This document shows positions 1,110-47,443 of a stretch of DNA of 64,000 nt, piece by piece. The stretch is from assembly GCA_002070475.1 (NCBI GenBank), contig MWDI01000063.1, positions 1 through 64,000 of the forward strand. Direction: 5' to 3'. The notes beneath the pieces were generated by a model, which saw nothing but the letters and a program-made list of their open reading frames with translations, was not told where the DNA came from and did no database searches. The translations under genes were made by a program, and so were the position numbers. This DNA comes from Firmicutes bacterium ADurb.Bin146. Its GTDB lineage: Bacteria; Bacillota; Clostridia; DUPQ01. Positions within the stretch are counted from its first letter, which is position 1; each line of letters opens with the position of its first letter.

Positions 1110-1154
1110 CAAGAATTAATGATATAATTAAAATCTAAGTAAATGGAGGTGCGT

Positions 1155-2114
1155 ATGCTTTACCCTTTAAAATTCCACCCAGTATACAAAGACTATATTT
1201 GGGGCGGTAATAACCTTTTGAAACTAGATAAGAAACTTATATATCCTATTACAGCAGAAAGCTGGGAAATATCCGCTAACAAGGATGGCATGAGTGTGAT
1301 ATCTAATGGAGACTTTAAAGAAAAAACATTAGAGGACATATTCAAGTGGTATCCAAAGGAACTATGTGGTAATAATAACCAGCAACAGTTTCCTTTACTT
1401 ATAAAGCTTATAGATGCCTGTTCTGCATTGTCAGTACAGGTACATCCGAATGATACATACGCATTCGAAAATGAAAATGGCGCTTTGGGTAAGAATGAAA
1501 TGTGGTACATAATAGATGCCAAACCTGATGCAAAGCTAGTATATGGTCTTAAAAAAGGTGTTACAAAAAATGATTTTGTAAAAGCAGTGCATGAAAATGA
1601 TATTGAAAGCACTCTAAATTATGTGCATGTAAAAAAAGGAGACTGGCTCAATATACCTTCTGGTCTTGTTCATGCGATAGGCGAAGGAATAATCATTATG
1701 GAAGTACAGCAAAACTCTAATACTACTTATAGGGTATATGATTATAACAGGACAGGTTCAGACGGGAAGAAAAGACCATTGCATATTGAAAAAGCGCTTG
1801 ATGTGATTAATTTCGGTGAAACTGAAATGCAAATAAATAAATCAATAAATTTTGGCGGAACTGATTATCTTGTATATAATAAATATTTTGCTGTACAGTT
1901 AATAGAATCAGATGGGTTATTGAAATCAGACACAATGTATACTTCATTCCATACATATACTGTCATTGAAGGTGGTTTTTATGTTGAAGAGGTATATGTA
2001 GGATTAGGGGAATCAGTACTGATTCCTGCCTGCATGGAGGAGTATTCATTAAAAGGACAGTTTAAAGCCATAAAAAGTTTTGTTCCAGATATAACTAGAA
2101 GATTTGTCTGTTAA
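1155..2114 (+). CDS. manA: Mannose-6-phosphate isomerase, class I
   Basis: This 319-residue enzyme interconverts mannose 6-phosphate and fructose 6-phosphate in the cytoplasm. It has the type I cupin signature: an IWGG segment near the N-terminus, the zinc-binding QVHP motif (about 98), the KNEMWY glutamate (about 115) and a LVHAIG histidine (about 175) followed by EVQQNSN.TYR. An in-frame ATG at 1143 is rejected as the start because it overlaps the ribosome binding site GGAGGT (1145-1150), which is correctly spaced for the ATG at 1155. The length matches short Bacillus ManA proteins. The gene stands alone. A second, more divergent ManA-like protein is encoded in the glycyl radical cassette. 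Confidence 0.93.
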   Translation: MLYPLKFHPVYKDYIWGGNNLLKLDKKLIYPITAESWEISANKDGMSVISNGDFKEKTLEDIFKWYPKELCGNNNQQQFPLLIKLIDACSALSVQVHPNDTYAFENENGALGKNEMWYIIDAKPDAKLVYGLKKGVTKNDFVKAVHENDIESTLNYVHVKKGDWLNIPSGLVHAIGEGIIIMEVQQNSNTTYRVYDYNRTGSDGKKRPLHIEKALDVINFGETEMQINKSINFGGTDYLVYNKYFAVQLIESDGLLKSDTMYTSFHTYTVIEGGFYVEEVYVGLGESVLIPACMEEYSLKGQFKAIKSFVPDITRRFVC

Positions 2115-36232: not shown

Positions 36233-38239
36233 ATGAAAGACAGATTACGTTTCAGACAGATTCATTTAGATTTTCACACAAGCGAGCTCATTAAAGGCAT
36301 AGGTGCTGAATTCGATGCAGATGATTTTGCCAAAACTCTAAAAGATGCGCATGTAAATTCCATTACATGCTTTGCAAGATGTCATCATGGAATGATTTAT
36401 TATGATTCAAAAATTAACAAAGAGAGAATACATCCTTATCTTGTTGAAAAAGATCTTTTAAAGAAGCAGATTGAGGTTTGCCATAAAAATGATATTAAGG
36501 TACCTGTATACACAACAGTTCAATGGGATATGTATACTGCAGTAAGACACCCTGAATGGCTTGTAAGAAAGACAGATGGGTCTTGTGAAGGAGATTACTT
36601 TAATAAAGATGGATTTTACGAAAGATTATGTGTTAACACACCATATATTGATTTTTTAAAGAAGCATGTGACTGAATTTGTGACAGAATTAAACTGTGAT
36701 GGAGTATTTTTTGATATCGTAAGCGAAATGGATTGTTCTTGTACATACTGTATGGAAAGCATGAAAAATAAAGGGATGAATCCCCTTGACGAACAGGACA
36801 GGAAATTACACTACAGACAGGTAATGAACCAGTTTAAAAAAGAAATGTCCTCTTTAGTCTGGTCTATAAGACCTGGAATTTTAGTGTTTTTCAACAGCGG
36901 ACATGTCTCATTTAAGGATAAGCTTCCATCTAAAGATACATATTCACATTATGAGATAGAAAGTCTTCCTAGTGGTGGTTGGGGTTACATGCATTTTCCT
37001 GTAACATGCAGATATACAAGAAATCTTGGCAAAGATTATTTAGCTCACACAGGTAAATTCCATACCAGCTGGGGTGACTTTCATTCATTTAAAAATGTGG
37101 AAGCTCTTGAATATGAAATATTCAGAATGCTTGCACTTAATTCCAAATGTCTTATAGGCGATCAATTGGAACCATCATGTGCTTTATCAAAACCGGTATA
37201 TGACCTTATTGGAAAGGTATATGCAAAAGTTGAAGAAAAAGAGCCCTGGTGCACTAATGCTGATCACATTGCCGAGATAGGCGTGTTCGTGCCTACAGAT
37301 GAAAAAAGCAGAGTTTCATCCTCTCAAGCAGCTATTGAAAGCCTGCTAAGCCAGCTGTCATATCAATTTGATTTTATTGATCAGGATATGGATTTTTATA
37401 AATATAAACTGTTGATTATACCTGAGAGAATTACTATTGATGATAATATGGATAAGAAGCTTTGTGAGTATCTAAAGAACAATGGGAAAGTAATATCTGT
37501 ATTTGATTCCATATTTTCGCAATCTTCAGTAAAAATCATAAAAGAAACAGTTGATGATTATAATCAACCTGTTAAGGGAAGATTTATTGCAAGAAACGGA
37601 TATGCGGATTATGTCATACCCACTGACGTCATAGGCAGAGATTTGTATAAAACCGAGTATGTTATGTATGTAAAAGGTATGGAAACAAAAACTGATAAAG
37701 GCCAATGTCTTGTTAAAGCATATGAGCCGGTATTTAATAGATCATATAAACATTTTTCATCTCATCTTCAGGGACCTTCATCACATATTGATGCATATGA
37801 TGCGGTTGTTATTAATAAAGATAGAAATGCCATCTATTTCAGCCATCCGATTTTTGAGATATATAATAAAAAAGGCCCTAAATGGATAAAAAGTATGCTC
37901 AATGATGCTATCAAGCTTCTAATGAAAGATAAACTTGTCAGTCATGATGGCCCTTCAACAATATTTACTTCTATGAATGTGCAAAAAGAGGAAAAGAGAT
38001 ATATCCTTCATATGCTCCATTACATACCCGAAAGAAGGTGTACTGATTTTGATGTTATAGAAGATGTCATACCTTTATATAAAATTAAAATTAAGATGAA
38101 CTTGCCAAAGAGAATAAAAAGTATCAATATAGTACCTCAAAACAAGCCTATCAGATTTTCAACTAAAGGAAAAATAGTATCATTTACTTTGGATAAACTG
38201 GAAGGACATTGTATGTTAAGTATTGAATATGAAGAGTAA
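36233..38239 (+). CDS. GHL6/GH42-like glycoside hydrolase of unknown specificity
   Basis: This 668-residue cytosolic protein resembles the hypothetical glycosyl hydrolase 6 group followed by a GH42-type trimerisation domain. The barrel (about 1-340) begins with RQIHLDFHTSE and includes SITCFARCHHG (about 42), KVPVYTTVQWD (about 90), CDGVFFDIVSEMDC (about 152), which probably carries catalytic acids, and HYEIESLPSGGWGY (about 240). Residues about 350-460 fit a beta-galactosidase trimerisation-like fold (LLIIPERITIDD). Gene order puts it after murI, four bases away. Specificity is unknown; an alpha-L-fucosidase- or beta-galactosidase-like role is possible. Confidence 0.72.
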   Translation: MKDRLRFRQIHLDFHTSELIKGIGAEFDADDFAKTLKDAHVNSITCFARCHHGMIYYDSKINKERIHPYLVEKDLLKKQIEVCHKNDIKVPVYTTVQWDMYTAVRHPEWLVRKTDGSCEGDYFNKDGFYERLCVNTPYIDFLKKHVTEFVTELNCDGVFFDIVSEMDCSCTYCMESMKNKGMNPLDEQDRKLHYRQVMNQFKKEMSSLVWSIRPGILVFFNSGHVSFKDKLPSKDTYSHYEIESLPSGGWGYMHFPVTCRYTRNLGKDYLAHTGKFHTSWGDFHSFKNVEALEYEIFRMLALNSKCLIGDQLEPSCALSKPVYDLIGKVYAKVEEKEPWCTNADHIAEIGVFVPTDEKSRVSSSQAAIESLLSQLSYQFDFIDQDMDFYKYKLLIIPERITIDDNMDKKLCEYLKNNGKVISVFDSIFSQSSVKIIKETVDDYNQPVKGRFIARNGYADYVIPTDVIGRDLYKTEYVMYVKGMETKTDKGQCLVKAYEPVFNRSYKHFSSHLQGPSSHIDAYDAVVINKDRNAIYFSHPIFEIYNKKGPKWIKSMLNDAIKLLMKDKLVSHDGPSTIFTSMNVQKEEKRYILHMLHYIPERRCTDFDVIEDVIPLYKIKIKMNLPKRIKSINIVPQNKPIRFSTKGKIVSFTLDKLEGHCMLSIEYEE

Positions 38240-39378: not shown

Positions 39379-40308
39379 TTAATACTTCCTATACTGTTTC
39401 CATATATCCAAAACTAGCTGGTATCTTTTTAGTTCCAGTCCTTTAAAAGGCACATTGCTTGTTGAATAAATATATCCGCCATTAGGTTTTCCATGAGTAA
39501 GACAGTATTTTGCACTCTCTATCACTTGCTCATCAGTACCTGTTTGAAGAAGAGCACAATTTACGTTTCCGATAAGGCATACTTTATCGCCAACTAACTT
39601 TTTGACTTTCGCAATATCTACTCCCGCCATTGGGTCAAGAGAATGAATTGCATGCGGATTAGCTTCAACAAGCTGATCCAGTATTGGCATTATATTACCA
39701 TCTGTATGTTTTATAGCATATCCTCCTGCATCTCTAATACCCTTAATTATTTTTGAAAGAAACGGGGTTATAAAAATAGAAAACTGCTCAGGGGATATAA
39801 AAGGCCCGTTATTGTAACAGTAATCAGAACATAAAATAAGGCTTTCTATTCCTCCATCTATTGCCCTTTTATTCCGTTCTATTGCAGAAGATGCCATCTT
39901 TTCAGCTTGCTCAAGAAGCCCTTTTGGATCATCTGCAATCCTGTATGCGAATTCATACATTTCATTTCCGTCTGGTATGCTGAAAGTCCCATCTCCATGT
40001 CTTGTTAAAAGGTATTTGTAATTAGTCATTTTATTTATAATCTGAGCTGTTTTAATAGACTCTTCAAGCCATAGATAGTGTATAGGTATTATCGAATATT
40101 CAAGTTTTTCAAATGCCTCAATCATTAATTCTGCATTTTCATGAATAGCTATGTCTTTTTCTTTATTTGTCATCTTTTCTAGACTGTCCTGCCTTAAGAA
40201 ATCTTTTCCAAGTAACTCATCAGTCAATTGAAATTCAAGCTCAAAGGTAGGTATTTCATCAGGAATACCACCTGTTAATGATGTTATCGCTCTTTGTTTT
40301 GGTGTCAT
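39379..40308 (-). CDS. UroD-family methyltransferase-like protein
   Basis: This 309-residue protein has the uroporphyrinogen decarboxylase fold. It resembles the MtaA/CmuA-type methylcobamide methyltransferase branch: CSDYCYNNGPFISPEQF (about 160-177), IKHTDGNIMPILD (about 200), SLDPMAGVDI, GNVNCALLQTG and a THGKPNGGYI segment. In MtaA the zinc ligands are H, C and C; here H of HTDG and C of NVNC remain. The porphyrin-site arginines of true HemE are not evident. The ATG overlaps the end of the upstream regulator gene (ATGA), with GGAGG inside it. Its substrate and corrinoid partner are unknown. Confidence 0.78.
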   Translation of the reverse strand: MTPKQRAITSLTGGIPDEIPTFELEFQLTDELLGKDFLRQDSLEKMTNKEKDIAIHENAELMIEAFEKLEYSIIPIHYLWLEESIKTAQIINKMTNYKYLLTRHGDGTFSIPDGNEMYEFAYRIADDPKGLLEQAEKMASSAIERNKRAIDGGIESLILCSDYCYNNGPFISPEQFSIFITPFLSKIIKGIRDAGGYAIKHTDGNIMPILDQLVEANPHAIHSLDPMAGVDIAKVKKLVGDKVCLIGNVNCALLQTGTDEQVIESAKYCLTHGKPNGGYIYSTSNVPFKGLELKRYQLVLDIWKQYRKY

Positions 40309-40685
40309 ATATCCTCCGGATTTAATTTTAAAAAAGCTTCTTTAATTTTATTGAAAGTCTCATCACTGATTACATGTTCAATCTTACAAGCATCTTGTTT
40401 CGCTGTCTGCTCATTTATGCCGAGTGTTACAAGGACATCTGTCAGTATACAGTGTCGTTCATAAATATCTCTAGCAATTTTCTCGCCAGAAAAAGTTAAA
40501 GTAATATATCCTTTTTCATCTATATGCAGATATCCGTTTTTCTTTAAAAGATTAACAGCTCTGCTTATGCTTGGTTTTGTATATCCGGTATAATTTACTA
40601 TATCTATCGAACGAATAACTTCGGATTTCTTCAACAAGATTAGGATTGTCTCAAGATACATTTCTGCAGATTCTTGTATGGTCAT
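40305..40685 (-). CDS. DtxR/MntR-family metal-dependent regulator
   Basis: This 126-residue protein has a winged helix (YLETILILLKKSEVIRSIDIVNYTGYTKPSISRAVNLLKKNGYL, cited here as residues about 10-53) and a dimerisation helix with the metal ligands expected of DtxR/MntR: the RHCIL histidine (about 78) and KIEHVISDE (about 101). There is no SH3-like domain, as in MntR. It is expected to respond to iron or manganese. The UroD-family gene is translationally coupled to it. A perfect 10-bp inverted repeat lies just upstream and may be its operator. Confidence 0.85.
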   Translation of the reverse strand: MTIQESAEMYLETILILLKKSEVIRSIDIVNYTGYTKPSISRAVNLLKKNGYLHIDEKGYITLTFSGEKIARDIYERHCILTDVLVTLGINEQTAKQDACKIEHVISDETFNKIKEAFLKLNPEDI

Positions 40686-41765: not shown

Positions 41766-42833
41766 TCAATCTTTTACTCCTCTATAACATTCGATAGCGA
41801 CCATATATTCTTTTGAAGATAATATGCATTTTTCCTTCATGCAGTATGGGAGCAGGAAATAATCGCCTTTTTTAATTAAAGTGAATTTTTTACCACATGT
41901 TACAATACCGCTGCCTTCTGTAATGAAATATATGGAAGGACTCTGTTTTAACAGAGTACTGTCAGCATTTATATTAATCCTATTTACTCTGAAACAGTCT
42001 GTTTGACGATTGTCTATGAGGGATTCGATTTTAACGCTAGGTTTATCCGATATTAGTTCTGGCTGTATCTTAGATAAATTTATAGCATTATTACCGCATA
42101 TTGACATATCAAAACAGCTAAGAGCAGTATGTTTATCCAGACCCATATACATTTCATAATCGTTAAGTCTGTAATCATCACACCATGCTTCGGGTTGTAT
42201 TGTAAAGTCTGTGGGTTCCTGTATCTCTAGAATAAGGCATCCGTAACCTATAGCATGAACTGCTTTTGCAGGTATGAAATACACATCGCCTTTTTTAACA
42301 TTATGCTTTACTATTAGACGCTCCATTGCTGTTTTGTCCTTAATGCTATTATCCACTGCACAGATCAGATCATCTTTTGTTACTCCTTCTTTAAAACCAA
42401 AGTATATGCAGGAACCTGGTCTTGTATCAAGTATAATCCATGCTTCTGCTTTCCCATATTCACTGTTAAAGTGCGTTTTTGAAAAAGTTTTGTCCGGATG
42501 TACTTGAACAGGAAGCCTTACAGCGCTGTCAAGCGCTTTTACTAGTATGCCCATATCATCATTAGGTCCAAGTATTTCTTCTTTATATTCGCTTATTAGG
42601 TCATCAAGATAAATATCAGTATCTCTAACTTTAGATATCCCTTCCTTGGGACCTTTACTTATTTTATTAAGAGCCTTAACTGTAGAAGCCACCCACTCTT
42701 CTGGGTAATTCCCATCTTCTGCGGCATCATTAAATAGTCTGTTAAAAAGAGTACCGCCCTTATATACACGAAAAACTCTGTTTCTATCGAAAAATATTGG
42801 GCTTTTTATTAATGTGCCGGTTTTTTTATTCAT
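41766..42833 (-). CDS. ManA-like class I phosphomannose isomerase homologue
   Basis: This 355-residue cupin metalloenzyme is clearly related to mannose-6-phosphate isomerase. RVYKGGTLFNRLF near the N-terminus, LPVQVHPDK (about 112), KAEAWIILDTRPGS (about 130), KGDVYFIPAKAVHAIG (about 180) and EIQEPTDFT give the zinc ligands Q, H, E and H. It differs from the solitary manA gene product by a longer N-terminus and insertions. The ATG overlaps the kinase stop codon (ATGA), so the two are cotranslated. It may isomerise the phosphosugar made by that kinase; the substrate need not be mannose. Confidence 0.84.
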   Translation of the reverse strand: MNKKTGTLIKSPIFFDRNRVFRVYKGGTLFNRLFNDAAEDGNYPEEWVASTVKALNKISKGPKEGISKVRDTDIYLDDLISEYKEEILGPNDDMGILVKALDSAVRLPVQVHPDKTFSKTHFNSEYGKAEAWIILDTRPGSCIYFGFKEGVTKDDLICAVDNSIKDKTAMERLIVKHNVKKGDVYFIPAKAVHAIGYGCLILEIQEPTDFTIQPEAWCDDYRLNDYEMYMGLDKHTALSCFDMSICGNNAINLSKIQPELISDKPSVKIESLIDNRQTDCFRVNRININADSTLLKQSPSIYFITEGSGIVTCGKKFTLIKKGDYFLLPYCMKEKCILSSKEYMVAIECYRGVKD

Positions 42834-44194
42834 GATAATTCCTCAAATCTGACAATTTTCTGTGCTTGTTCAACTGAATTAAAACAGTCTATTGCAGTTA
42901 ATGCATATAAAGCTGCACCATATGCTGCTTCCTCGTTATTTATAGGTACAGAAAGAGTAAGAGAAAAAGTTTTTTCCAATATTTCCTTAAGTAATGGATT
43001 TTTCCTTATACCATTTCCGGAACCGATAAGCCGAGCTCTTTTTGATGAATCAAATTTTTTTATTTCATTATACATAAAGTAAAGTTCATCGGATATACCT
43101 TTCAGCGCTGAATATGTTATATGCTTTGCAGTAAAATTATCCTCTGTCAGCCCTGAAATTTCTGCTTTTATATGAGGGTTTTTTCTGGTACCACAAAAAA
43201 GTGTCGAAAAAACTGGATTATTTTTTACGGTATTATTTTTAATATCATGAATCATTAAATCGTACATATTTTCAGGTGATTGAAAGCCTGCCATTCTTAT
43301 AACATCATCATAAAAACTTTTAAGTATAGCAAAAGCTCTGCCTCCGCATAATGATGCTCCCACAAATATATGCTTATTTTCCGAAAATGGCCGTATCTCA
43401 ATATCAGGACTATCTGTTTGAGTAAGACTTGTTTTTAAGGAAATCTGGCTTCCTGTTCCGATATTTAAAAGAATATCATCATCGCACCCTGATCCAATAA
43501 ACCCTGCCTGATTATCCCCGATTGCAATGCAAACTGGTATACGGTCTTTATATTTACCCAATATCAAAGGAGTATCTACTACGTCGGGAAGTAATTTTTT
43601 ATCAATACCTGCTTTTTCTAAAGCAGAACAATCAAACTTGTTATCTTTTAAGTTAAAAAGACCTAATGAGTGAGCGTCAGAAGAGTGAAGTATGATTGTT
43701 TTTATATTTGCCAGGTTACATGCGATATAACCATGAATTGTTGATATGTAACGAGCATTATAACTCATTTTTTGATGTGTGTGGTAATACAAGGTGGTAA
43801 GTCCGAATCCCGTCGCCATCTTGTAACCGGTAATATTAGATAGTTTTTCAGCATATGACATTTTGCTATTTTCATATTGCATTTCGCCTGACTCATCCTG
43901 CCAAGTAAATAGAGGACTGCTTATAGAAAAATCATCCCTAAGATATACTATTCCATGCATCTGTCCGGTTACTCCTATGCATTCTATGTCGGTATACTTG
44001 GACAGTGCTAGGTTTACTAGGCTTATAGCCTTATCCTTTATTAATAAGGCATCCTGCATTCTTGTAAGTTCATTATTAATGCTTAAGAAAGTATTGTTTG
44101 GTAAATTAAAACTTTCAATACTTTTTCCAGTATTACTTTCAATTACTGTGACACAAATTTTGCTTGTCCCTATGTCTAGACCCAATGCTTTCAT
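42830..44194 (-). CDS. FGGY-family carbohydrate kinase (sedoheptulokinase-like)
   Basis: This 454-residue ATP-dependent sugar kinase has the ATP-site GLDIGTSK at the N-terminus, GVTGQMHGI (about 75), SPLFTWQDESG (about 92), IGDNQAGFIG (about 220), NIGTGSQIS and a C-terminal GSGNGIRKNPLL. The TGQMHG and TWQD features recall sedoheptulokinases and xylulokinases, which phosphorylate ketoses or polyols. The start is the ATG at 44194; its AGGTGAT site overlaps the stop codon of the glycyl radical enzyme gene, so the two are tightly coupled. The substrate is unknown. Confidence 0.86.
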   Translation of the reverse strand: MKALGLDIGTSKICVTVIESNTGKSIESFNLPNNTFLSINNELTRMQDALLIKDKAISLVNLALSKYTDIECIGVTGQMHGIVYLRDDFSISSPLFTWQDESGEMQYENSKMSYAEKLSNITGYKMATGFGLTTLYYHTHQKMSYNARYISTIHGYIACNLANIKTIILHSSDAHSLGLFNLKDNKFDCSALEKAGIDKKLLPDVVDTPLILGKYKDRIPVCIAIGDNQAGFIGSGCDDDILLNIGTGSQISLKTSLTQTDSPDIEIRPFSENKHIFVGASLCGGRAFAILKSFYDDVIRMAGFQSPENMYDLMIHDIKNNTVKNNPVFSTLFCGTRKNPHIKAEISGLTEDNFTAKHITYSALKGISDELYFMYNEIKKFDSSKRARLIGSGNGIRKNPLLKEILEKTFSLTLSVPINNEEAAYGAALYALTAIDCFNSVEQAQKIVRFEELS

Positions 44195-44203
44195 CAAAAT
44201 CAC

Positions 44204-46567
44204 CTATATGGAAGTAGATAATGGATCTAGCCTGGTGATTATATCATTTTGAATAGCAGGTGAAAGATCTAAAAAATTTACGAATGTTCCATGAATTCTC
44301 ATTATATACACACCGTTTGGTGCATATTTTTTAGGATCGGCAAGAACTTTTCTTAATGTATCTGCAGTTGTAACATTTACATATAGATAATATGGGCATA
44401 AATTGTTATTCATTTCATTAAAGAATAATGGCATTATTATTCTGTCTCTAAATTGTAAACCTTTTTCCTCATAAGAATCAGCTGTAAAATATTTAGGGTC
44501 TATACCAAAGTGTGATGCATATCCGCCATCCATTTCATCAAATGGAAGGTTCATGCATGATAATATTCTAAAACCAAGACCCATTGTGGCTTCACCATAT
44601 AATGGATCAATTCCATAACCTAACATCTCGCGTGCCAATCTTCCATCAGCAGTTGCGCCTACCCAGTATCCATAAAGCAAATGCGTAGAGGGTGTTGACC
44701 AGTCAGCACGAAACCCGTTATTAAGATAGTTTTTCATTGATTTGACATAATCAGATATTTTTAAGGAAATCTCTTGAGCAAGAGTATCCGGTGTAGGCAT
44801 ATTATTACCATATTTAGGCGCCTTTTTTAGAAAAGCTCTTATATCAGAGTCGTTTTCAAAATTGCTTCTTATAGCATTAAGGAGCCGTTCAGGATCATTA
44901 GGATAAACTTTAAGGTATTCTTCTATTGCAATTATTGAATCTGTAGCAACGGATAATCCGTGAATCAGACAGCCACTTGCATTGTATTTAGTACCTTGAT
45001 TATTTACATCCCTCATATCATACCCTGTTACAAGTCCTCCCATGAAGCTGGATAAGAAGGGGACAGGAAGTTCGGATAAAGCTATAGATGCTGCATTTGC
45101 TGCATCTGTCATATGCTTTATATAATATTTCGCATCATCAAAAAAGTATTCCTTAATATTCTTAAGAAGCGTTAGATTATCAGTATTTCTTGTCCTTCCT
45201 ATTACTTCACCAGATATAAGTGAACGTCCGTTATTAATTGTCATTTCCAGTATTTTTCCAAGATTCAGCCAGCTGTTTGTAGTATTTCCGTTATCTTTAC
45301 CCATTATAAGCGGTTCTTGGCATCCTGCAACAGAATAATCCTCAAGATCGTCTTTATCAACTCCGGCTTTCGAAAGAACCTTAAAAACAGATTCGTCATT
45401 GAATAGTGACGGGGTAAGGCACCCCGGAGTGAAGAAAAATCTTCCCAACTCCTCATATAGCCTTGCAGGAGTGTTATTGTGCAATTTTACTGATAATATC
45501 GGTTGAGGGAAGTTCATTGCATAATAAGCATCAAGAAACGCATATGTGCATATATTAGTTAAATCCTCACCTGTATTGGATTTGCCTGCTAAAAGGACAT
45601 TCTGAGATATAGCCCATGATCTATCACCTACATTGTAGAAAACAAGGAAATGTTTGAATAAACTTGCAGCTTGTTCTCTTGTGAGGTCTTTTCTATATGG
45701 TTCGAATATCCTGTCTGCGTTACCAACAGAAAAAGCAAATGGATTAGGCGCTTGTTCAAGGCACATGACCTGCCATAATAATAGGAAGGATTGTATTGCT
45801 TCATAAAGATTTTCTGAAGGAAGATAAGGTACTTTTTTTAATGTGGTTTCAATCAGCAAAAGTTGCTGTTTTCTTTCATTAGAAGCTGTTTTTGATTGTG
45901 AATTTGCAATATCTGCATATCTATGAGCTAAAAGAACGACACATTCAAGAGAAAGTTTCATTGCAATGAGATTGTTACGTTTTTCCTCATTTTTTTCACT
46001 TCTTATGGATTCTTCTGTTTTTTCAATTATGCCTTTTATTCCATATTTCAGCGCGGGACGGAAATCCGGTATGACATGGCCTGTAACTTGTTCTATAAAG
46101 AATATGACTTCTTTTGTGTATTGCTCGTAATCATCATAGACTTTTGTAAGCTTTCTTACGAATTCAGTATTTTTAGTGAATTCCTTAACTTTTGCGATTC
46201 TCTCTTTGGTGAATTCCGTGTTTGGTTCTATATCGTCATATATCGCTGTAGGATCACAATAACCCGAAAATGTCTCAACCTCAAATGACGGATTGATTAA
46301 AGCGTATGATCTGGCAAATGCATCTCTTTGTGTGCCTGCGAATATGTTATGCTCACTGATGTATAACGGTATATTTGCAACTATATGTTTAAGCTCATGA
46401 GCAGCACGGATTTCTTTTGGAAGACCTTTTAACTCATTTTGTATATCACAGACTATTTCACGGGCTAAAAACCAACCATCAAGTCTTTTTAACTCTCGTT
46501 CTTCTTTAAAAAGCAGGGATGCTTTCTCATCAATAAGTTCTTTTGAATATACCTCATATGCTTTCAT
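44204..46567 (-). CDS. Glycyl radical enzyme of unknown substrate (dehydratase type)
   Basis: This 787-residue PFL-like enzyme is expected to form a ten-strand barrel with an active-site cysteine and a C-terminal glycyl radical. The cysteine loop reads VAGCQEP (C416, E418); cysteine-x-glutamate is the layout of eliminases such as glycerol, choline and hydroxyproline GREs (usually GCVEP), not the CC pair of pyruvate formate-lyase. The radical loop reads RIHGTFVNFLDL with glycine 760, where most families have RV.GY or RV.GF. The start is ATG 46567 after GGAGGT. It follows its activase gene and precedes the kinase. The substrate may be a phosphorylated sugar or polyol; this is inference. Confidence 0.88.
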   Translation of the reverse strand: MKAYEVYSKELIDEKASLLFKEERELKRLDGWFLAREIVCDIQNELKGLPKEIRAAHELKHIVANIPLYISEHNIFAGTQRDAFARSYALINPSFEVETFSGYCDPTAIYDDIEPNTEFTKERIAKVKEFTKNTEFVRKLTKVYDDYEQYTKEVIFFIEQVTGHVIPDFRPALKYGIKGIIEKTEESIRSEKNEEKRNNLIAMKLSLECVVLLAHRYADIANSQSKTASNERKQQLLLIETTLKKVPYLPSENLYEAIQSFLLLWQVMCLEQAPNPFAFSVGNADRIFEPYRKDLTREQAASLFKHFLVFYNVGDRSWAISQNVLLAGKSNTGEDLTNICTYAFLDAYYAMNFPQPILSVKLHNNTPARLYEELGRFFFTPGCLTPSLFNDESVFKVLSKAGVDKDDLEDYSVAGCQEPLIMGKDNGNTTNSWLNLGKILEMTINNGRSLISGEVIGRTRNTDNLTLLKNIKEYFFDDAKYYIKHMTDAANAASIALSELPVPFLSSFMGGLVTGYDMRDVNNQGTKYNASGCLIHGLSVATDSIIAIEEYLKVYPNDPERLLNAIRSNFENDSDIRAFLKKAPKYGNNMPTPDTLAQEISLKISDYVKSMKNYLNNGFRADWSTPSTHLLYGYWVGATADGRLAREMLGYGIDPLYGEATMGLGFRILSCMNLPFDEMDGGYASHFGIDPKYFTADSYEEKGLQFRDRIIMPLFFNEMNNNLCPYYLYVNVTTADTLRKVLADPKKYAPNGVYIMRIHGTFVNFLDLSPAIQNDIITRLDPLSTSI

Positions 46568-46582
46568 GTAAACCTCCATTAG

Positions 46583-47443
46583 TTATGTAGTTATACAATT
46601 AAAACCGTTTTCATTAAATATACGGGTAAACATTTCAATTGTACTTTTGGAAACATATTCATTTCCACTCATATTATATTCCATACCGCATTGAATCCAT
46701 TTTGATTTGCCATATTCATGAAACTTAATCAGTTCAATAGATATGTTATTTTTATTACACTCAGATAAAGCCTGCACGAATCCATGTGCATTTTCTTCTT
46801 CTGCATTAAAACCTTTTACTAAAGGTATCCTTATAATCATATTTGTAAGAAAAGACAGTTTTTTTAAGTTCCTTTTGATAATCGCATTAGATATTCCTAC
46901 TGTCTTTCTATGCTTTTCATCGTCGTAGTGTTTAAAATCCACAATAAGATTATCCACATATTCTATCAATGAAGCAAGCTGAGGATGTGAGCCATTAGTT
47001 TCTATTGCTGTATTAATGTTATTTTGTTTGAGTTTTTTTAGCATATCGGTCAGGACCGGCATATTTAATGTGGGTTCACCACCAGTAAAAGTAACTCCTC
47101 CATTTGAAAAAAACATTGCTTTGCTTCTTATTGCTTCATCTACCACATCATCAGTTTCATATGTTATACATGACAATTTTATTCCCATATGAGGTGTTTG
47201 AATACATATTCTTGGGCACCCTTTGCAAATACTGCTGTCAAGATTTTTGGAAGATATAGCTCCTTTAGGGCATATGTTGTCATCTATTTCATTAGTAATC
47301 ATTATGCTGCCCTTTTCATTTATACCTTCAGGATTAGCGCACCATGGACAGCGCATATTACATCCTTGAAGATGATAAACAAGCCTGTTACCCGGTCCAT
47401 CCTGTAAAAAATTAAAACCTTTTTGAAATATATTAACTAACAT
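46583..47443 (-). CDS. Glycyl radical enzyme activase (radical SAM)
   Basis: This 286-residue protein installs the glycyl radical on the enzyme encoded next. The radical SAM motif CNMRCPWC (C28, C32, C35) binds the catalytic 4Fe-4S cluster, and GGVTFTGGEPTLN (about 115) is typical of PFL-activase proteins. The inserted ferredoxin-like segment has only four cysteines (C58, C73, C76, C80), enough for a single auxiliary cluster rather than the two in many eliminase activases. The site AAAGG precedes the ATG. The cysS stop codon lies past its stop on the same strand; the gene begins one base after cysS ends. Confidence 0.9.
   Translation of the reverse strand: MLVNIFQKGFNFLQDGPGNRLVYHLQGCNMRCPWCANPEGINEKGSIMITNEIDDNICPKGAISSKNLDSSICKGCPRICIQTPHMGIKLSCITYETDDVVDEAIRSKAMFFSNGGVTFTGGEPTLNMPVLTDMLKKLKQNNINTAIETNGSHPQLASLIEYVDNLIVDFKHYDDEKHRKTVGISNAIIKRNLKKLSFLTNMIIRIPLVKGFNAEEENAHGFVQALSECNKNNISIELIKFHEYGKSKWIQCGMEYNMSGNEYVSKSTIEMFTRIFNENGFNCITT

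Follow-up and report, generated by a model that had tools for sequence, protein, structure and literature searches.

What does a glycyl radical enzyme (GRE) act on when the genes beside it encode a carbohydrate kinase and a sugar isomerase? This question is raised by a four-gene cassette of Firmicutes bacterium ADurb.Bin146, a member of the Clostridia, in the 64,000-nucleotide stretch of contig MWDI01000063.1 analysed here (the window). The cassette probably cleaves a C-O bond in a sugar-derived compound, feeding fermentation. In the reading that we favor, held with middling confidence, the GRE is a sugar-level C-O lyase that acts upstream of the FGGY kinase, which phosphorylates its carbonyl product. 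We favor it because the FGGY gene is linked to the GRE almost without exception, because every cassette GRE examined carries the Cys-x-Glu motif, and because the neighboring genes are of sugar type. The order of the steps, the lack of a phosphate on the GRE substrate and the bond cleaved are all three what we infer. The genes concerned are as follows.

46583-47443, minus strand: radical-SAM GRE activase, 286 amino acids (aa), CxxxCxxC motif GCNMRCPWC
44204-46579, minus strand: GRE of a clade without a characterised member, 791 aa, with Cys420, Glu422 and Gly764
42830-44203, minus strand: FGGY carbohydrate kinase, 457 aa, GTG start
41766-42833, minus strand: ManA-like isomerase with the type I phosphomannose isomerase (PMI) fold, 355 aa
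47445-48842, minus strand: cysS, immediately upstream of the activase gene
1143-2114, plus strand: canonical ManA, a separate gene, with the Arg-containing motif TTYRVYDY

As the earlier note on this DNA described, the four genes lie on one strand directly behind cysS with tiny gaps or overlaps: 1 nucleotide separates cysS from the activase gene, 3 separate the activase and GRE genes, the GRE and FGGY genes abut (0 nucleotides), and the FGGY and ManA-like genes overlap by 4. Within the FGGY gene, an internal ATG at 44194 agrees with the starts of its orthologues. Searches of Pfam and NCBIfam upheld all four assignments (activase, PFL-like GRE, FGGY kinase, PMI-like protein), and the activase scores 193.9 bits against TIGR02494 (glycyl-radical enzyme activating protein; cut-off 174.35). 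GC content is even over the region and so does not suggest that foreign DNA entered it recently. A phage origin was rejected as no relative was found among viral contigs, and a plasmid origin as plasmid matches reach only ~26%. The window cassette contains no dehydrogenase, shell protein or transporter gene, as noted before, and no gene of the phosphotransferase system (PTS); ABC transporters do lie near the cassette in a few other loci. The gene cysS adjoins the cassette only in the window and in two congeneric loci (L034 and L035). The cassette may be co-transcribed with it in this genus, and in functional terms cysS is outside the cassette.

How constant is this gene set? Our scan of genome contigs gave 231 related stretches, of which the best-matching 80 were kept, so near relatives are favored; these 80 loci come mostly from metagenome-assembled genomes of ruminant or other animal guts or of digesters. 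Cultured carriers include Muricomes intestini and Sporanaerobium hydrogeniformans. Even sampling found the GRE in 13 of 391 Clostridia genomes (~3% of those sampled from this class), and the window's own genome is the sole match among 398 of the phylum. Adjacency was counted in those 63 of the 80 loci whose flanks were long enough. An activase gene is adjacent in 63/63 of them, an FGGY gene in 58/63, and the ManA-like gene in 34/63. On these counts the kinase is nearly fixed in the cassette and the isomerase is optional. The earlier note had regarded both as fixed beside the GRE and had proposed to look beside its closest relatives; the kinase is indeed there, and the isomerase is absent from about half. 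Comparison of 291 Clostridia genomes found the cassette-type FGGY gene in 13/13 GRE-positive and 13/278 GRE-negative genomes (Fisher 8e-16), and the cassette ManA-like gene in 8/13 and 1/278, respectively (Fisher 1e-11), both tests being uncorrected for relatedness. The lone GRE-negative genome with the ManA-like gene has a contig end inside the FGGY gene, that is, an assembly break. We found no account of the GRE-FGGY-ManA set in the literature searched, whose coverage was partial, so an earlier description is possible.

The GRE matches the PFL-like family PF02901 (5.7e-107), falls far below every NCBIfam GRE cut-off and gives no match to the Pfam model Gly_radical (PF01228). The best match in both sequence and fold is the B12-independent glycerol dehydratase of Clostridium butyricum (1r8w/1r9d; 24–28% identity), and the score against TIGR01774 (glycerol/propanediol dehydratase), 254.3 bits, does not reach the cut-off of 678.2. 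An AlphaFold (AF2) model built from 50 family members has a mean predicted local distance difference test score (pLDDT) of 83.8. Foldseek places this model in the GRE fold, with template modelling (TM) scores of ~0.8 to many GREs and 0.82 to 1r8w, at identities of no more than 24% in the structural alignments. The 1,2-propanediol dehydratase (5i2g, 9rco) likewise shares the fold and the Cys-x-Glu loop at 22–23% identity (structural match); unlike that system, the window cassette lacks aldehyde or alcohol dehydrogenase and shell genes. Orthologues with 57–88% identity occur in gut and digester Clostridia, the next GREs are at ~30%, and all characterised GREs compared, E. coli YbiW and PflD included, stay at or below ~28%. 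In the tree, the cassette sequences form one clade (support 100/100) apart from PflB, PflD, YbiW and glycerol dehydratase, on a long branch that makes its deeper placement unsure. The GRE does not cluster with the hydroxyproline, propanediol or any other assigned family, a point on which the earlier note had wanted a check.

Turning to the active site, GCQEP, with the active-site cysteine and a glutamate two residues on as in eliminases, is found in 80/80 loci. Cys420-Gln-Glu422 of the window GRE agrees with the Cys-x-Glu motif of GRE eliminases, which points to C-O cleavage, and in the alignments Gly764 occupies the position of the radical glycine of other GREs. The published C-terminal GRE fingerprint is RVxG[FWY] (PMC11528403). 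At this position, RIHGTF stands in 80/80 loci and the canonical form in 0/80, and the loop is preceded by a 3-residue insertion. The segment that other GREs widely keep as GR[FM]DQ reads GNADR. Compared with glycerol dehydratase, the cassette GRE has in common the Cys-x-Glu loop and a conserved His in a GHV..D segment, and differs in having RIHGTF for RVAGYS, an 11-residue deletion near residue 320, Thr434 at the position of Asp447, and Phe/Tyr and Ala at the positions aligned to His281 and Ser282. These three residues of glycerol dehydratase belong to its substrate site. Judged by predicted fold, cysteine, glycine position and activase, the cassette GRE is a member of the superfamily, though it fails the published fingerprint.

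The kinase exceeds the cut-offs of PF00370 and PF02782, the FGGY_N and FGGY_C domains. With the xylulokinase XylB it shares the FGGY fold and the motifs GQMHG and GDNQ, but it scores only 113.6 bits against TIGR01312 (XylB; cut-off 380.25), and a 100/100 branch sets the cassette subfamily off from XylB. All NCBIfam equivalogs are far below cut-off, and no subfamily of known substrate fits. At L072, L089 and L090, the FGGY neighbor is XylB-like (22–25% identical to the window kinase) and not of the cassette type, and at L106 a ROK kinase takes its place. The need for a sugar kinase is therefore conserved beyond the gene itself. Since this requirement is nearly constant even where the gene has been swapped, a phosphorylated sugar is probably an intermediate of the GRE pathway. 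FGGY kinases typically phosphorylate terminal hydroxyls of ketoses.

The ManA-like isomerase scores 78.1 bits against TIGR00218 (manA), short of the cut-off of 116.2. Its AF2 model (pLDDT 94.1) superimposes on B. subtilis ManA (1qwr) with TM 0.74–0.84 in Foldseek, at 23–24% sequence identity. Alignment to PMIs reveals that Q110, H112, K128, E130 and H193 are kept, the Q/H/E/H metal ligands and catalytic Lys having the roles described in PMC4718643. The differences from 1qwr are a longer loop after QEPTDFTIQPE, a distribution restricted to GRE genomes, and Gln213, which occupies a conserved PMI Arg position and is Gln in 38/38 cassette members. Arg is found there in B. subtilis ManA, in the canonical ManA of the window and in most sister ManA-like proteins. 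A crystal structure exists of the R274A mutant of Salmonella PMI, which suggests that its depositors took an Arg as an active-site residue, and we infer that Arg274 is equivalent to the Arg replaced by Gln213. The replacement may mean that the substrate is unphosphorylated. A housekeeping ManA was considered and rejected: the gene at 1143-2114 covers the ordinary mannose-6-phosphate metabolism of this genome, and outside GRE-positive genomes the cassette ManA is almost absent. D-lyxose isomerase takes the isomerase's place at two loci (L106, and L207 of genome G276). It was rejected as a general substitute, as both the cassette ManA and a full-length D-lyxose isomerase are missing from four GRE-positive genomes.

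Several observations concern ManA-like genes elsewhere. In nine loci (L053 9431-10105 and eight others), a conserved protein of ~225 aa without a Pfam match follows directly after ManA. In congeners (L034 14809-15867, L035 14796-15854, L144 1618-2676), a 353-aa protein missing from the window has this position; the L034 copy has no Pfam match. No GRE accompanies the ManA-like and FGGY genes at L149 (6122-12788). Their neighbors encode an esterase, a beta-lactamase-fold protein, an amidohydrolase and an AraA-like protein, and the same isomerase-kinase pair may here follow a sugar's release by hydrolysis. A sister ManA-like gene at L157 (109-5630) lies between a GH2 gene with mannosidase domains and genes for a class II aldolase and a PfkB kinase. 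A different GRE cluster (L150 9317-11530, L151 8617-10821, L152 2170-4377) comprises an activase, a 736-aa GRE, a cupin, a ManA-like protein sharing ~35% identity with that of the cassette, an AP_endonuc_2 epimerase and two Gfo/Idh/MocA oxidoreductases. Its GRE has GCHWM in place of Cys-x-Glu, so no substrate can be transferred from that cluster; the missing Glu is chemically puzzling. These sister GREs join the cassette clade weakly (87/66) and with a warning of long-branch attraction, and we therefore claim no kinship with them.

That this GRE is tied to sugar metabolism is supported by the surroundings of the other loci. ROK-type proteins, mostly regulators, flank ~18 of the 80 loci, and AraR-like and AraC regulators occur at a few. 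Among glycoside hydrolases (GH), GH38 (alpha-mannosidase) is co-oriented and no more than ~5 kb away in five loci, and stands between the GRE and FGGY genes in G087; GH32 (fructosidase) adjoins the cassette in three loci and also adjoins cassette-type FGGY genes that have no GRE; and GH51 is near some loci. The order is GRE-FGGY-D-lyxose isomerase-mutarotase-PfkB in G276 (L207), and GRE-SIS-ROK kinase-URO-D-D-lyxose isomerase in L106. An FSA/transaldolase gene (FSA) stands between the GRE and FGGY genes in G275, and in L111 it follows the FGGY gene and also precedes a second one. As an obligate partner, FSA was rejected, being absent from 8 of the 13 GRE-positive genomes, the window's included. 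Most loci have no additional enzymes in the operon.

On the basis of these findings, we propose that the cassette would encode a short anaerobic sugar-salvage route. By analogy with its family, the activase would put a glycyl radical on Gly764, Cys420 would pass the radical on, and Glu422 would act as the general acid/base. The substrate of the GRE would be derived from a sugar and carry no phosphate. The enzyme would take a hydrogen from one of its carbinol carbons and expel the neighboring C-O group, and the terminal hydroxyl of the resulting ketose-level carbonyl sugar would then be phosphorylated by the FGGY kinase. In loci that have one, a ManA-like enzyme or D-lyxose isomerase would interconvert the aldose and ketose forms of a product sugar or of a companion sugar. 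Glycolysis would take up the ketose phosphate directly, except in a few genomes where an FSA-type aldolase would act on it first. Most loci lack a dedicated dehydrogenase or aldolase, which suggests that the product becomes a central metabolite once phosphorylated.

Four points weigh against this proposal. Gene order is no proof of reaction order, and the kinase could act first. The 13 GRE-less genomes with a cassette-type FGGY gene imply that the substrate of this kinase also occurs outside the GRE pathway. The four GRE-positive genomes with neither isomerase mean that the isomerase step is dispensable. The eight genomes without FSA also count here.

Could the substrate be an anhydrohexitol? 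GRE elimination within a sugar backbone yields a deoxy sugar, which normally needs a dedicated aldolase; FSA would serve for 1-deoxyfructose-6-phosphate. In this alternative, the GRE would open unphosphorylated 1,5-anhydroglucitol or 1,5-anhydromannitol to 1-deoxy-D-fructose, and the FGGY kinase would make 1-deoxyfructose-6-phosphate for an FSA-type aldolase. It would be the kinase-after form of the E. coli YbiW/PflD route, in which the PTS phosphorylates first. We consider it possible but somewhat unlikely; an unphosphorylated anhydrohexitol and a hexose conjugate, taken up next, are our two leading substrate candidates. Ketose hydroxyls are the usual FGGY target, the cassette has no PTS gene, and FSA lies within the cassette in G275 and L111, as fsaA adjoins ybiW in E. 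coli. Ether cleavage by GREs acting on 1,5-anhydroglucitol 6-phosphate (AG6P) and 1,5-anhydromannitol 6-phosphate (AM6P) is established (PMC12441222; titles of PDB 8id7 and 8id0), so the earlier note was right that AG6P-acting enzymes exist. It named AG6P as one candidate substrate, but membership of the present GRE in that family is not supported: YbiW and PflD (8id7, 8id0, 8yjo), though like our proposed enzyme eliminases on a sugar-derived compound, are only 21–25% identical, form separate clades, and share with eliminases active-site features that the cassette GRE lacks, the GR[FM]DQ segment common to both being one difference. Their substrate arrives phosphorylated by the PTS, and they have no FGGY or ManA partner. 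The genomes without FSA also argue against an anhydrohexitol, and the ManA-like isomerase is left unexplained.

Another possibility, which we regard as unlikely, is that a hexose conjugate, such as a mannosyl- or fructosyl-polyol, is split by the GRE at an ether or glycosidic C-O bond, with the hexose leaving. Mannose would be converted into fructose by the ManA-like or D-lyxose isomerase, and fructose phosphorylated by the FGGY kinase. With a sugar as the leaving group, the product would be an ordinary hexose that requires no special aldolase, in keeping with the isomerase and the fructose/mannose context. Mannose-type isomerases of two unrelated families recur in the loci, as do mutarotase, fructokinase-like PfkB/ROK kinases, GH38 and GH32, the last beside cassette-type FGGY genes even without a GRE. 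The sister ManA-like gene next to GH2, aldolase and PfkB genes fits as well, and the Arg-to-Gln change may imply an unphosphorylated substrate. On the other hand, we know of no GRE with a sugar as its leaving group, the four GRE-positive genomes without a dedicated isomerase argue against it, and each hydrolase neighbor occurs in a minority of loci. That the whole family with the RIHGTF loop radically cleaves hexose conjugates, the freed mannose or fructose being isomerised and phosphorylated by the two partners, seems to us very unlikely.

Alternatively, the FGGY kinase may act first, so that the GRE, like YbiW and PflD, receives a phosphorylated sugar or polyol and the ManA-like enzyme isomerises a phosphorylated product. 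PMI-fold enzymes normally use 6-phosphates, and both characterised sugar GREs use phosphorylated substrates (PMC12441222; PDB titles). We nevertheless find this order quite unlikely: the Arg that canonical and most sister ManAs retain is replaced in the cassette ManA, and the enzyme that twice takes the isomerase's place, D-lyxose isomerase, normally works on free sugars. Finally, that the substrate is not a sugar at all, with the kinase and isomerase linked otherwise, for example to recycle a sugar by-product, could appeal to a substrate not readable from sequence, to a glycyl loop and several active-site segments unlike all GREs compared, and to URO-D-like proteins alongside some loci, but the kinase linkage is near-universal and the regulators and hydrolases are of sugar type, making it highly improbable.

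Other genes around the cassette deserve mention. In the window, a gene for a URO-D-like protein overlaps that of a small MntR/DtxR-like regulator (39379-40685), an arrangement kept downstream of the cassette in the genus (L034 and L035 too), and L106 (6241-15143) has four URO-D-like (MtaA-type) proteins in one cassette locus. A GHL6-type hypothetical glycoside hydrolase with a GH42-like trimerisation domain (36233-38239) belongs to the plus-strand gene run just before the cassette region. Elsewhere in the window's genome (G000:C40 and G000:C66; L161 and L162), we notice two more GREs of the pyruvate formate-lyase type, each with an activase.

The clade escapes both the published GRE fingerprint and the Pfam Gly_radical model, and its RIHGTF loop, present in all 80 loci, lends itself to asking which residues of the loop a glycyl radical requires. 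If the GRE acts on a free sugar derivative, the cassette would be a further GRE-dependent route of sugar fermentation, with an ATP-dependent kinase where E. coli uses the PTS, and it may lead to a dietary or microbial sugar that has been overlooked. If hexose conjugates are cleaved radically, gut Clostridia would have a radical alternative to glycoside hydrolysis.

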